This document shows positions 1-42,178 of a DNA stretch of 42,178 nucleotides, in pieces (position 1 is the stretch's first letter; each line of letters opens with the position of its first letter). The notes beneath the pieces are model-generated. The model was given only the letters and a program-made list of their open reading frames with translations. It was not told the DNA's origin and did not search any database. The DNA is from Bacillota bacterium. GTDB taxonomy: Bacteria > Bacillota > UBA994 > UBA5500. The DNA is taken from the NCBI GenBank assembly GCA_029781045.1, contig JAKOXL010000028.1, positions 1 through 42,178 on the forward strand, in the 5' to 3' direction. The translations under genes were made by a program, and so were the position numbers.

Positions 1-110
1 ACCATCGACGAATTAAGCTGAAGCTAAAAGGAATGAGCCCAGTTGAATACCGGACTCATTCCTTCGAAGCTGCTACTTAATAATCTGTCCAACATTTGGG
101 GTGCAGATCA
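1..110 (+). mobile_element. IS3-family (IS150-type) insertion sequence, 3' end only
   Basis: The 110 bases are identical to the reverse complement of 41928-42037, so the same element lies at both window ends in inverted orientation. The copy carries the last codons of a transposase and then a terminal repeat that reads inward as TGATCTGCACCCC and ends in the dinucleotide CA. IS150-group ends have a similar TG...CTGCACCC...TTGGAC pattern. The boundary at 110 was placed where identity between the two copies stops. The rest of the element lies outside the window. Confidence 0.9.
3..80 (+). CDS. IS3-family transposase (OrfB), C-terminal fragment
   Basis: The frame is open from the window edge and ends at TAA (78-80). 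It encodes the conserved tail of IS3-family DDE transposases ([20 protein letters not shown]). The catalytic core is outside the window. The gene is cut by the window edge, not by mutation, and the same tail is present with more of its upstream part at 41958-42178. The reading direction points toward cadA, whose gene converges on it. Confidence 0.88.
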   Translation, partial: HRRIKLKLKGMSPVEYRTHSFEAAT

Positions 111-126
111 CGCAACAGCCCCTCTT
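111..126 (+). terminator. Half of an intrinsic terminator, split by the IS
   Basis: Directly after the IS end come a loop-like CGCA, the arm ACAGCCCC and a T-rich TCTTTT. Intact terminators at 20672-20693 and 22244-22266 have the arms GGGGCTGT and ACAGCCCC around a CGCAA-type loop. The matching GGGGCTGT arm is therefore missing here and presumably lies on the far side of the IS. On the minus strand this half-hairpin follows the cadA stop codon by only a few bases, so it was probably the cadA terminator. Confidence 0.7.
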
Positions 127-134
127 TTCAACTA

Positions 135-2810
135 TTATCTATTCCGCATCAGACGCATACCATTGGCAATGACTAAGAGGGCTGCACCCGTATCGGCCAG
201 TACTCCCATCCAGAGCTCAGAGCGGCCCATAAAGGTAAGGATGAGCACCACTCCCTTGATGGCCAAACTAAGCACGATGTTCTGCCCGATAATACCCACC
301 GTTTTGCGGCTGAGGCGCATGAGCCAAGGTAGTTTGGTAAGATCGTCGGCCATGAGGGCTATGTCGGCCGTTTCGATGGCAGTATCGGTGCCCGCCACGC
401 CAAGGGCAATGCCGACGGTTGCAGCTGCCAGCGCTGGGGCATCGTTCACACCATCACCCACCATGGCCACTTGGCTGTATCTAGCCGCCAAGTTGTTAAC
501 GGCTTCTACCTTGTCAACAGGCAAGAGTTCGGCCAGCACTTCATCCACTCCCACCTGCTGTGCAATGGCTGCTGCTGTACGACTATTATCACCGGTAAGC
601 ATTACCAACGACTGCACGCCTGCCTGACGCAGAGCAGCCGCAGCACTAATGGCTTCTGGTCGCACTTCGTCAGCAAGAGCCAGTAAACCATAGATATGCT
701 TTGCATCGAGCAGGAAGACGACGGTATGACCTGTCGTTTGCAGGCGCTCCACCGCCTCTAGCACAGCGGCAGTGGGCTGCAACCCCACCTGCTCAACTAG
801 ACGCTGGTTGCCAATCCAGAATTGGTGTCCTTTGACCCAGCCGGTAGCTCCACTGCCGGTAAGGGCCTGGAAGTCGACCACTGGCGGTAACTCCATGTTC
901 CGCTCCTGGGCCGCCCGCACGATGGCCTGGGCTAGTGGATGTTCAGAGCGGGCCTCCAAGGCCGCAGCTACCATAAGCAGTGCTTCTTCATCACAGTCTA
1001 TTGGCAACAACTGGCTGAGTCGCACCTGCCCCAGAGTCAGGGTGCCCGTTTTGTCGAAAGCTATGGTGCGCACCTTACCCATGGCTTCCAGATAGGCTCC
1101 ACCTTTGATTAACACGCCGTGGCGCGAGGCATTACCGATGGCCGCTACAATGGACACAGGGGTAGAGATAACCAAAGCACAAGGACAGGAAACTACCAAC
1201 AAGATTAAGGCTCTCTTAAACCAGCTGGCAAAATCGTAGCCCAAAAGGGGCGGTATGGCGGCCATAGCCACAGCGAGGAAGATCACTACAGGTGTATAGT
1301 AAGCGGCAAAGCGATCGACCAACTGCTGCGACGGTGCCCGTTGGGACTGGGCTTCTTCAACTAAGTGCATAATGCGCGATAGGGTATTATCGGCTACTAG
1401 GCGATCAACTATCACTTCTAGGCTACCATTGCCATTGATGGAGCCGGCGAAGACCCGGTCGCCTTCTACCTTATCCACGGGAATAGACTCACCGGTTATG
1501 GGTGCCTGATTAACCGCCGAACTGCCCTGACGTACTATGCCATCCATGGCGATCCGCTCACCGGGTCGCACTATAATGATATCGTCTAATGCAATCTCCT
1601 CTACCGGCAGGATCATCTCCACGCCGTCCCGTCGCACCAAGGCCTCCTTTGGTGCCAACTCCATAAGTGAACGGATGGATTGGCGCGTCTTATCCATGGT
1701 GAATGCTTGCAGCGTGTTACCTAAGGAGAAGAGGAAGACAACCATAGCCCCTTCATGCCACTCACCGATGGCTACCGCTCCTATGGCCGCCACAGTCATG
1801 AGAAAGTTCATATCAAGGCTACGATTCATTAGGGCGTAAAAACCACTGCGAGCCACGTAGAAACCACCGGTCAGCATTCCTAACACGAATAGGACTCTGC
1901 TAAGCAGCGGATTATGCCAGGCCAGCTCGGCTCCCCAGCCGGCCACGAGAAACGCACCAGAGACAAGGGTTAGTAAAGGACGTCTATTCTTAAGCCAAAA
2001 GCTACTTGGCTGTTTATTCTCCACTTTAGCTGTTAGAGGTAGCCCGCGATAACCAACCCGCTCTACCGCAGTGAGAATTCGAGCCTCGGCAGTGGCGGGA
2101 GCAAAAGCCAACAGACCATTGCTAAAGCTGAGGCTAACATAGGTAACCCCCGGCAGGCGACGCAACTGTAGTTCCAGTTTGGCAGCGCAGTCGGGGCAAT
2201 CAAGCCCTTCAATGCGCATCTTTGCGCTTGCTACCGCAGGAGGGTCTGCCAGCAGCTGGCTGCCATAGCCCAGTTGGCTGATTATCTGCTGCAAGCGCTG
2301 TGTATCTAGGGCTGAATCGGCATAAACCTTCAGTTCGCCAGCGGCATAGGAGATATCGGCAGCTATAACACCCATTTGTCGCCGCACCACTTGGGCTAGT
2401 TTGGCGGCACAATCGGGGCAGTCGAGGCCCTCTATGCGGAATACTAGCGGTTCCTCTACCACATGGGCGGCTAAGGCAGCGGCCGCCTCGCGGCTACCCG
2501 GCTCCGCATGGGTGTGCCCATACTCATGGTGATGGTGGTGCCCGCAACTGCAGTCATCGTGGTGATGCTGGTGATCATGACCGTGGTGGTGGCCGCAGCC
2601 ACAACTGGTCTCTACAGAGTTGCAGTTGCAGGCACCTGCGTCCGCCAGACCATCCCCTTCACTCTCACCATCCCCTTGGTGGTGATGGCCGCAGCCACAA
2701 GTTTCTGTATGTGTATGCTGCGACTCAGCGGCAGCTGGCGCATGGGCATGCTGGCAACCGCAGTTACAAGATGCAGAATGATGATGGTGATGATGTTCAT
2801 GCTGATGCAT
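135..2810 (-). CDS. cadA: P1B-type Zn2+/Cd2+/Pb2+ exporting ATPase with a His/Cys-rich N-terminus
   Basis: This 891-residue protein couples ATP hydrolysis to export of soft divalent metals across the cytoplasmic membrane. Residues 1 to about 105 are an extreme metal-binding tail with about 30 His and 11 Cys, including CGCGHHH blocks. Two heavy-metal-associated domains follow (about 121-190 and 195-265), each with GLDCPDC; the Asp before the first Cys is typical of the Zn/Cd/Pb class. The membrane metal site is SCPCAL, the phosphorylation site DKTGTLT and the hinge GDGVNDAP. The start at 2810 has GGAGG upstream and lies just after the stop of the cadC-type regulator, so the two genes form one operon. 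It is longer than typical single-HMA CadA because of the tail and the second HMA. The metal preference is inferred from motifs. Confidence 0.95.
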   Translation of the reverse strand: MHQHEHHHHHHSASCNCGCQHAHAPAAAESQHTHTETCGCGHHHQGDGESEGDGLADAGACNCNSVETSCGCGHHHGHDHQHHHDDCSCGHHHHHEYGHTHAEPGSREAAAALAAHVVEEPLVFRIEGLDCPDCAAKLAQVVRRQMGVIAADISYAAGELKVYADSALDTQRLQQIISQLGYGSQLLADPPAVASAKMRIEGLDCPDCAAKLELQLRRLPGVTYVSLSFSNGLLAFAPATAEARILTAVERVGYRGLPLTAKVENKQPSSFWLKNRRPLLTLVSGAFLVAGWGAELAWHNPLLSRVLFVLGMLTGGFYVARSGFYALMNRSLDMNFLMTVAAIGAVAIGEWHEGAMVVFLFSLGNTLQAFTMDKTRQSIRSLMELAPKEALVRRDGVEMILPVEEIALDDIIIVRPGERIAMDGIVRQGSSAVNQAPITGESIPVDKVEGDRVFAGSINGNGSLEVIVDRLVADNTLSRIMHLVEEAQSQRAPSQQLVDRFAAYYTPVVIFLAVAMAAIPPLLGYDFASWFKRALILLVVSCPCALVISTPVSIVAAIGNASRHGVLIKGGAYLEAMGKVRTIAFDKTGTLTLGQVRLSQLLPIDCDEEALLMVAAALEARSEHPLAQAIVRAAQERNMELPPVVDFQALTGSGATGWVKGHQFWIGNQRLVEQVGLQPTAAVLEAVERLQTTGHTVVFLLDAKHIYGLLALADEVRPEAISAAAALRQAGVQSLVMLTGDNSRTAAAIAQQVGVDEVLAELLPVDKVEAVNNLAARYSQVAMVGDGVNDAPALAAATVGIALGVAGTDTAIETADIALMADDLTKLPWLMRLSRKTVGIIGQNIVLSLAIKGVVLILTFMGRSELWMGVLADTGAALLVIANGMRLMRNR

Positions 2811-2813
2811 ATT

Positions 2814-3194
2814 CTATTCCTCCGTTTCCAAAGTATGCCGGACGTGATCGGCCGCCTGTGCCAGCATGCTAATCACGTGGTCATCATCTAAGCTATAGAG
2901 AACTTCTTTGCCTTCCCGTCGATTACGCACCAGGTGTAGGCCCCGCAATACCCGCAACTGGTGAGATACGGCTGATTGACTCATGTTTAGAACTTCCGCC
3001 AGATCACAGACACACAGTTCGCCGGCTCGCAAAGCCAGAATAATCCGCAGACGAGTGGGGTCCCCCATGGCTTTGAATACGTCGGCTAATCGCTGCGCTT
3101 GTCGTTCGGCCGGCAAGGCCTGCCGAGCCCGCGTGATGGCGCACTCGTGGATCTCATGTTCATCACAACAAGTTGCAAAATCCAGGTCGGTCAT
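2814..3194 (-). CDS. cadC: ArsR/SmtB-family metal-sensing repressor (CadC/CzrA type)
   Basis: This 126-residue winged-helix repressor should release the cad promoter when it binds zinc, cadmium or lead. The alpha3N-type site is visible as ELCVCD (C61, C63) with extra N-terminal cysteines (C9, C10). The alpha5-type site is also complete: D104, H106, H117 and H120 have the same spacing as the zinc ligands of CzrA. The recognition helix contains SQSAVSHQLRVL. The gene is the first of a two-gene operon, its stop is 3 bases from the cadA start codon, and a palindromic operator lies just upstream. Carrying both site types is the CadC-like arrangement. Confidence 0.93.
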   Translation of the reverse strand: MTDLDFATCCDEHEIHECAITRARQALPAERQAQRLADVFKAMGDPTRLRIILALRAGELCVCDLAEVLNMSQSAVSHQLRVLRGLHLVRNRREGKEVLYSLDDDHVISMLAQAADHVRHTLETEE

Positions 3195-4681: not shown

Positions 4682-4701
4682 GGGCTGTAACGAAACAGCC
4701 C
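4682..4701 (-). terminator. Intrinsic terminator of the S9 peptidase gene
   Basis: Arms GGGCTGT (4682-4688) and ACAGCCC (4695-4701) flank a 6-base loop. On the minus strand the hairpin lies about 20 bases after the peptidase stop and is followed by a TCTTTCT-rich stretch. It belongs to the family of similar GGGCTGT hairpins found across the window. Confidence 0.75.
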
Positions 4702-20671: not shown

Positions 20672-20693
20672 GGGGCTGTCGCAAAACAGCCCC
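20672..20693 (-). terminator. Intrinsic terminator of the bofC-like gene
   Basis: Arms GGGGCTGT and ACAGCCCC enclose the loop CGCAAA. On the minus strand the hairpin is followed by TTTTGCTTGCC. It lies between the bofC-like gene and ruvC, so ruvCAB needs its own promoter or read-through. It is an intact example of the hairpin that is interrupted by the left IS. Confidence 0.8.
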
Positions 20694-22243: not shown

Positions 22244-22266
22244 GGGGCTGTCGCAAGAACAGCCCC
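22244..22266. terminator. Intrinsic terminator of the GGGGCTGT family
   Basis: Arms GGGGCTGT and ACAGCCCC with a CGCAAGA loop; TCTTCTTT follows on the plus strand and ACGTGTTTTT on the minus strand. It is 280 bases from the end of the nearest upstream minus-strand gene (22547), so the transcript it ends is not certain. Confidence 0.65.
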
Positions 22267-22546: not shown

Positions 22547-23431
22547 CTAGCCACCGTACGCTTGCCAGATGAGCTCCAGGGTCGTGTCGTCACCGGGAGC
22601 AGTCGACCGGTAGGCTACACGGGTGTAACGTAAGAACACGTTGGCAACCAGCACAATGGCTTCACCGGACTCTACCTCTTGTTCCGTGCCGTCGTCAATC
22701 CAATCCACATCGTTGGGGCTAATCTGTAGCTTGACAGTGGCCGGGTTGGCACCTGTGTTCTTGATAAACCAGGTGTAGTTGGGAACACGGCTGACATCCT
22801 GCGAATTGGAACCGGCGTAAGTGTCAGCGGTGTTTACGTTTTCCGTGTCCTCCATAAAGGTAGAGACAGACGCTACCTGTAGCACACCGTTGGCATCCGT
22901 GAGCAGTGCCACATTGTTTACACCATCATTGCCGTATACGAGGACACTGTCAGTGGTGTTGTCAAGGTCGCGAATATCTAAATCGGTGGCATCGACAGTG
23001 ATGCTACCACCATTGTCCTGGATAGCGAGAGCGCCAGTAGCGTCAGTGAGCAAGGCCCGGTTATCTGCACCGTCGTTACCATAGACCAGCACGCTGTCAG
23101 CGGTATTATCCAGATCACGGATATCGAGATCGGTGGCATCAACGGTTATGCTACCGCCGTTGTCCTGGATAGCTAGAGCACCAGTGGCGTCGGTGCGCAC
23201 GGGCTGATTGTTCACGCCATCGTTGCCATAGACTAACACACTGTCGGTGGCATTGTTCAGATCCCGGATGTCAAAATCAGTAGCCTCGACGGTCAGGCTA
23301 GCACCGTCAGTTTGAATAGCTACGGCTCCTGTGGCATCTACCTTTATTGGCTGATCGGTACCATTATCGTTACCGTAGATTCGAACCCTCAATTCTGAGG
23401 GTGCATCTTGGAAGACCTTGTAGTTGGGCAT
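22547..23431 (-). CDS. DUF6385-like protein with about 49-residue tandem repeats
   Basis: The 294-residue, strongly acidic protein begins MPNYKVFQDAPSELRVRIYG, the opening I associate with DUF6385-type proteins of spore-forming Clostridia. Residues 16-65, 66-114 and 115-163, plus a partial copy at about 164-189, are beta-rich repeats of YGNDG..TDATGALAIQDNGGS..VDATD.DIRDL. The C-terminal domain (about 200-294: VPNYTWFIKNTGANPATVKLQIS ... LRYTRVAYRS) matches the C-terminal domain of the divergent gene at 23590. There is no signal peptide, as in many spore-coat proteins released by mother-cell lysis. The biological role is unknown. GAGGTGAGG precedes the ATG. Confidence 0.75.
   Translation of the reverse strand: MPNYKVFQDAPSELRVRIYGNDNGTDQPIKVDATGAVAIQTDGASLTVEATDFDIRDLNNATDSVLVYGNDGVNNQPVRTDATGALAIQDNGGSITVDATDLDIRDLDNTADSVLVYGNDGADNRALLTDATGALAIQDNGGSITVDATDLDIRDLDNTTDSVLVYGNDGVNNVALLTDANGVLQVASVSTFMEDTENVNTADTYAGSNSQDVSRVPNYTWFIKNTGANPATVKLQISPNDVDWIDDGTEQEVESGEAIVLVANVFLRYTRVAYRSTAPGDDTTLELIWQAYGG
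22865..23386 (-). repeat. Three and a half coding tandem repeats (about 147 bp each)
   Basis: Units at 23386-23237, 23236-23090, 23089-22943 and a partial one at 22942 to about 22865. Units 2 and 3 are nearly identical as protein but differ at many third codon positions, so the repetition is old and held by selection on the protein. Confidence 0.85.
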
Positions 23432-34499: not shown

Positions 34500-34518
34500 A
34501 CCCAAATGGAAAGTATCT

Positions 34519-34558
34519 GGGGTGGTCGCAAAATCTTTTTGCGACCACCCCATTTTTT
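34519..34558 (+). terminator. Intrinsic terminator after the alpha-oxoamine synthase
   Basis: A perfect 15-bp stem (GGGGTGGTCGCAAAA and its complement) with a 3-base loop is followed by ATTTTTT. Confidence 0.92.
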
Positions 34559-41851: not shown

Positions 41852-41910
41852 CACGGGCTGCCTACTACTTTGCTGGGCACGTAAGTGGGATCAGGTCTGA
41901 CGGGAACATG

Positions 41911-41927
41911 AAAAAAGGGCCTGTCTT
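41911..41927 (+). terminator. Half of an intrinsic terminator, split by the right IS
   Basis: An A6 run and the arm GGGCCTGT (41917-41924) are followed by CTT and then the IS end at 41928. Read on the minus strand from the IS this is AAG, ACAGGCCC, T6. The complementary arm is missing and presumably lies beyond the IS. It follows the protease gene by about 60 bases and was probably its terminator. Confidence 0.65.
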
Positions 41928-42178
41928 TGATCTGCACCCCAAATGTTGGACAGATTATTAAGTAGCAGCTTCGAAGGAATGAGTCCGGTATTCAACTGGG
42001 CTCATTCCTTTTAGCTTCAGCTTAATTCGTCGATGGTTGTAGTAATCTATGTACTTTTCCAGCTGCTCTCGGAAGTCTTCAACGGATTCGAAGCTTTGGA
42101 GATAGAGTAATTCGGATTTGAGTAGTCCAAAGAAGTTCTCCATAACAGCGTTGTCTAGGCAGTTTCCTTTGCGAGACA
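41928..42178 (-). mobile_element. IS3-family (IS150-type) insertion sequence, 3' part
   Basis: The second copy of the element at 1-110, in inverted orientation. It begins with the terminal repeat TGATCTGCACCCC and continues into the transposase gene up to the window edge. Identity to the left copy is complete over the 110 shared bases. Confidence 0.92.
41958..42178 (-). CDS. IS3-family transposase (OrfB), C-terminal part
   Basis: The frame is open to the window edge and encodes the end of an rve-type DDE integrase: [20 protein letters not shown], where the Glu of MENFFG is the last catalytic acidic residue, then [19 protein letters not shown]. It is truncated only by the window. The nearest in-frame ATG (42143) is internal and not a true start. 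Confidence 0.92.

Follow-up and report, generated by a model that had tools for sequence, protein, structure and literature searches.

Probable insertion of an IS150-type element and its relatives into the loops of terminator-like hairpins

The window – the whole 42,178-nucleotide stretch of Bacillota DNA analysed here, which is the entire contig C1 of a genome of 2.01 Mb in 57 contigs – has both of its ends inside copies of one insertion sequence, and each copy abuts one half of a hairpin. This raises the question of whether the element reached these positions by chance or is directed to them, and, if directed, by what feature of the DNA. The right (3′) end of the left copy occupies positions 1–110 on the plus strand and comprises the OrfB C-terminus (26 protein letters) and a right inverted repeat (IRR) whose terminus, GGGGTGCAGATCA, lies at 98–110. 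Half a hairpin follows at 111–128, with a loop CGCA (111–114), the 3′ arm ACAGCCCC (115–122) and a T-tract, TCTTTT (123–128); on the minus strand these read as an A-tract, the 5′ arm GGGGCTGT and TGCG. An initial annotation had described this succession of loop, arm and T-tract, which is confirmed; the feature extends 2 nt beyond the end it had placed at 126. The second copy (41928–42178, minus strand) likewise presents its right (3′) end, with the OrfB C-terminus on the minus strand, and runs off the contig. Beside it, at 41908–41927, are an A-tract, a variant 5′ arm GGGCCTGT and a loop CTT, and the junction reads GAAAAAAGGGCCTGTCTT|IS. The left copy (1–110) and the inverted copy (41928–42037) are 100% identical over their common 110 bases.

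The gene next to the left copy (135–2810, minus strand) encodes a CadA-like heavy-metal P-type ATPase with a His-rich N-terminal region and HMA domains (Pfam matches to E1-E2_ATPase, 2.7e-55, Hydrolase, 6.7e-36, and HMA, 1.4e-14). Its 3′ end faces the element and its stop codon lies 24 nt from the junction. With its order of A-tract, stem and T-tract, the hairpin split by the left copy belongs to the bidirectional type. Because cadA lies on the minus strand, the half remaining for it is the A-tract and 5′ arm, and the plus-strand 3′ arm and T-tract serve transcripts leaving the element. The half hairpin does lie beside cadA, as had been claimed in naming it the cadA terminator, but the remnant available to cadA transcription is the 5′ half and not the 3′ half. 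The N-terminus of the ATPase (2521–2810) is very rich in His, and an ArsR/SmtB metalloregulator gene (2814–3194, minus strand) lies directly upstream.

As judged from its TG...CA ends and fragments of OrfA and OrfB, the element belongs to the IS3 family, IS150 type. The terminal inverted repeats 5′-TG...CA-3′ are present (IRL TGAAGTGCACCCC..., IRR ...GGGGTGCAGATCA), and the C-terminal 84 aa of OrfB, reconstructed from another contig of this genome, C55, match Pfam rve_2 (E 2.8e-22) and also rve_3, placing the DDE integrase core of the IS3 family on this C-terminal fragment. The match to NCBIfam transpos_IS3 (E 1.3e-30, 107 bits) falls below the 160-bit cut-off because only an OrfB fragment is assembled. 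An OrfA fragment matches HTH_Tnp_1 (4.5e-11), and two OrfA copies in the genome carry a frame break. The assembly lacks a complete transposase for this element (no rve domain match), and the element's own domain architecture is known from fragments only; the two-frame OrfA/OrfB layout is seen in full only in the relatives L043, L046 and L054. The copies in contigs C28 and C57 are internally deleted, and the element may be dead in this genome, or its centre may merely have been lost in assembly. Contig C57 (31.5 kb) carries left ends of the element (L014, L015) facing outward at both of its ends, and is thus bounded by two copies in opposite orientation.

Sixteen element ends occur in the genome (eight right and eight left, the copy at 41928–42178 included), corresponding to at least eight independent insertions. 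Every one of them is adjoined by a terminator arm, GGG(N)CTGT, located 3–6 nt from the junction and with an A-tract outside, and most flanks contain a gene pointing at the element, with the nearest stop codon 17–76 nt away. The proposal that the element had entered a terminator loop is thereby supported, and the contrary outcome, in which other copies would mostly lie outside hairpins, is not what the genome contains. Three arms vary (GGGCCTGT, GGGCTGT with three G, and GGGAGCTGT), and the number of G residues ranges from three to six; these differences between copies show the arm to be host sequence and not part of the element.

Intact, IS-free hairpins with the same arms as those beside the left copy are present in the window at 20672–20693 (GGGGCTGT-CGCAAA-ACAGCCCC; fold -16.0 kcal/mol, z -5.2) and 22244–22266 (GGGGCTGT-CGCAAGA-ACAGCCCC; fold -16.5 kcal/mol, z -3.9); both were listed in the initial annotation and both fold beyond shuffles. 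A further intact palindrome, GGGCTGT-AACGAA-ACAGCCC, lies at 4682–4701, and the window has 7 occurrences of GGGGCTGT where 2.2 would be expected, a count of 7 being reached in 1 of 100 shuffles. The genome as a whole contains 61 intact GGGCTGT-N(2–12)-ACAGCCC palindromes, nearly all with a six-base spacer, and none of the reversed-pattern control; two genomes of the same genus contain 6 and 4 and one of the same family contains 5 (G001–G003). From these counts the GGGCTGT hairpin is amplified or homogenised in this species, in a REP-like manner. The amplified palindrome often takes the form GGGGCTGTC-GCAA-GACAGCCCC or its reverse (GGGCTGT-N6-ACAGCCC), and a 16-bp perfect hairpin with a T-tract at 34514–34551, TGGGGTGGTCGCAAAA-TCT-TTTTGCGACCACCCCA, contains the GTCGCAA core of the shorter terminators. 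Elsewhere in the window, three tandem 147-nt repeats (22893–23333; 76% and 69% identity to the first) form 49-residue protein repeats inside a minus-strand ORF (22547–23431).

With 61 loops of ~6 nt in 2.0 Mb, the chance of random insertion into such a loop is roughly 2e-4. In a sample of 442 kb, composed of 400 kb of genome stretches and the window, 67 terminator-like hairpins were flagged, of which 15, about a quarter, are of the GGG(N)CTGT type. As all ends lie in this one type, the preference goes beyond any terminator: in this genome a bias towards the GGGGCTGT hairpin comes on top of hairpin recognition, and pure recognition of shape leaves that preference unexplained.

The mate of the left copy lies outside the contig. 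As for the other contrary outcome, a far side of this copy that lacks a GGGGCTGT arm, each of the eight candidate left (IRL) ends in the assembly has the arm. Those in C28, C57 and C22 have at least 3 bp in common with the left copy in target-duplication orientation, and joining the left copy's flank to these sites gives folds of -18.8 to -22.1 kcal/mol. Copies of the element break contigs, and of 64 left/right end pairs 12 have 3 bp or more in common, compared with 6 in a wrong-orientation control; several pairs fit by duplication, none decisively. The internally deleted copy in C28, the sole copy with both ends, has no target duplication. A search of four genomes of the window's order yielded no close copies of the element.

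Eighty relatives with 58–79% identity over the OrfB C-terminus were collected from Bacillota, Bacteroidales and Treponema and their ends located. Many are inserted in hairpin loops whose stems have unrelated sequences (e.g. AAAAACGGCCCGGACCTCGG[IS]CGGGTCCGGGCCGTTTTTTT in L103 and AAAAAAATCCCCCCTACA[IS]ACATTGGGGGATTTTTTT in L118), and stems often differ even within one relative genome (G006, G009, G010); L201–L203, only 54–56% identical, also sit in such hairpins. When 35 sites were scored for a strict, ungapped stem, 22 ranked above the 95th percentile of the mate-swapped flanks and 20 above the 99th; these counts are low estimates, since the score, which allows loops of up to 10, misses hairpins with larger or interrupted loops (e.g. 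L155, L156 and L194). Across 49 non-redundant sites, assembled from the relatives, from extra copies in seven of their genomes, and from three plasmid and three E. coli elements, the joined flanks have a median fold of -19.2 kcal/mol versus -8.1 kcal/mol for mate-swapped flanks. T-runs are found in 35 of the 49 IRR flanks and A-runs in 37 of the 49 IRL flanks, compared with 2 and 1 in wrong-side controls. Energy separates real flanks from swapped ones better than counts of enclosing pairs do, because the A- and T-tracts pair in swaps too. In 41 non-redundant insertions chosen for having a target duplication of at least 3 bp (range 3–5 bp), the duplications are of 3 bp (29), 4 bp (11) and 5 bp (1), and 32 lie no more than 3 nt from the loop centre. 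No base motif is present around these 41 sites, where the composition reflects arm and tract symmetry only. The palindromes used by L046 and L106 lack a T-tract, and L072 and L076 are among the few relatives outside hairpins.

Taken together, these patterns make it likely that the IS150-type element inserts specifically into the loops of inverted repeats that can form hairpins, for the most part bidirectional intrinsic terminators behind genes. Since the arm sequence is free between hosts, the cue is probably not base sequence but the geometry of an inverted repeat or cruciform flanked by A- and T-tracts. The transposase, with two active sites and two-fold symmetric strand transfer 3–4 bp apart, would dock its dyad on that of the palindrome, which may itself be extruded as a cruciform, so that recognition would be of the DNA palindrome or cruciform itself. 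Insertion would cut the predicted host terminator into halves and leave genes intact, and transposase transcripts would exit through the captured 3′ arm and T-tract. Two related ideas were tried and rejected. A terminator rebuilt from the IRR and the captured arm is not indicated, the window's two chimeric hairpins (z -0.83 and +0.99) being no better than shuffles; and the resemblance of the target arm to the element's own ends (GGGG plus 8–9 nt on each side of the junction) fits this genome only, as in relatives the 5′ arms are C-rich and the 3′ arms G-rich, with no such mirror.

Other explanations account for part of these observations. The location of most sites in intergenic DNA, 3′ of genes, is the expected refuge of harmless insertions, and would be obtained if insertion were random and only events behind genes survived selection; survival cannot, however, place the duplication so close to the loop centre (~3 nt or less in 32 of 41), nor give 16 of 16 ends in a hairpin type filling well under 0.1% of the genome, and we regard this explanation as very improbable. 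The notion that the arms belong to a longer element with terminal GGGGCTGT, such that the flank is not a host terminator, draws on their likeness at all ends in this genome and is already refuted: the arms are not the same in every copy (GGGCCTGT, GGGAGCTGT, three to six G), all sequence outside them differs, the A-tract included, 61 hairpins are free of the element, and the relatives' arms are unrelated.

A stronger contender, albeit an unlikely one, is that the transposase reads GGGGCTGT as base sequence in a REP-like repeat, in the way that IS1397 and ISKpn1 read palindromic units. All ends here are of the GGG(N)CTGT type that makes up about a quarter of terminator-like hairpins, which for at least eight insertions has a probability of 0.25^8 ~ 1.5e-5, and the hairpin is strongly amplified (61 versus 4–6 in related genomes). 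Relatives at 58–79% identity over the OrfB C-terminus nevertheless use unrelated stems, often several per genome, and the 41 duplication sites have arm and tract symmetry but no motif. It is also conceivable that the element responds to the transcription-termination complex (RNA polymerase paused with its RNA hairpin) and not to DNA shape, as most targets follow genes and have T-tracts; we consider this quite improbable, given that IS1397 uses REP palindromes and that those of L046 and L106 have no T-tract. Such targets favour DNA shape and speak against any requirement for a paused polymerase.

IS3-family elements are already known to target palindrome loops in the case of REPs (PMC1525189). 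The window's element resembles IS1397 and ISKpn1 in IS3-family membership, OrfA/OrfB, TG...CA ends and palindrome-loop insertion, and it enters the loops of a dispersed palindrome (16 of 16 ends, 61 intact palindromes). IS1397 and ISKpn1, however, target one REP family by sequence, whereas here the targets are terminators and the stem is free across the group; restriction to one palindrome family holds for this genome but not for close relatives. The parallel with IS1397, drawn at the outset, was tested using two E. coli copies as a positive control, and both lie in loops of REP-type palindromes. It had been framed as a parallel case within one Clostridia-like genome; the parallel stands, but it is far wider, with relatives across groups. 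IS1397 itself branches outside the Bacillota/Bacteroidales cluster in a quick tree, on a long branch of unsure position.

Three E. coli elements of the IS150 type, ISEcB1 among them, are situated in terminator loops. ISEcB1, found in E. coli B and C strains, is of the IS150 type, and in BL21 it occupies, between yfbM and nuoN, a terminator-like hairpin and is flanked by a CATG duplication (CCGCCGAG[CATG]..IS..[CATG]TCGGCGG); it differs in being only distantly related, and one site was examined. IS150 belongs to the same subgroup, is about 1.44 kb long, makes 3–5 bp duplications and has several copies beside a half palindrome, but it follows no terminator-loop rule: of the 10 copies examined, L187 and L188 lie in or at coding sequence, and most of the remainder adjoin type I toxin genes of the hok or ldr type. 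Five (L184, L185, L189, L191 and L192) lie just upstream of hok-type genes (hokA, hokB, hokE and plasmid hok/mok), and the half palindrome beside these hok-clustered copies reads AAGCCCC...GAGGCT or GGGGCT. Group IIC introns are mobile elements that target rho-independent terminators; they differ in being retroelements with RNA-guided insertion and unrelated machinery. IS1447 of C. thermocellum is a Firmicutes IS3-family element once filed under IS150 (PMC6211511); its ends start with TA and not TG, many of its neighbours are pseudogenes, and terminator targeting is not reported for it.

In the open-access literature searched, no account of IS3/IS150 elements directed to terminators came up, and an earlier description may exist elsewhere. 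In the quick tree, terminator targeting is spread over the group, including near IS150 and ISEcB1. This tree, which has SH-aLRT support only, several long branches that are unsure, G000 placed on 84 residues and target types labelled by eye, supports a deep trait without dating it. On balance we favour the view that the IS150-type group (in Bacillota, Bacteroidales, spirochaetes and Proteobacteria) follows a deep, sequence-independent hairpin-loop rule, directed chiefly to intrinsic terminators, of which the REP targeting of IS1397 and ISKpn1 would be a specialised case, with the transposase acting as a natural sensor of palindromes or cruciforms. If true, such a rule would explain how a very common group of insertion sequences spreads without breaking genes, make IS1397 one case of a general behaviour and no longer a curiosity, and predict sites of transcription rewiring, each insertion splitting a terminator. 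It would also make testable the question of how a DDE transposase recognises palindromes whatever their sequence, and half terminators at contig ends could serve as a marker for these elements in genome annotation. One relative, L100 of Paenibacillus sp. PCH8, is inserted in the stem and not the loop of a long hairpin, and provides a natural test case for the strictness of the loop rule.
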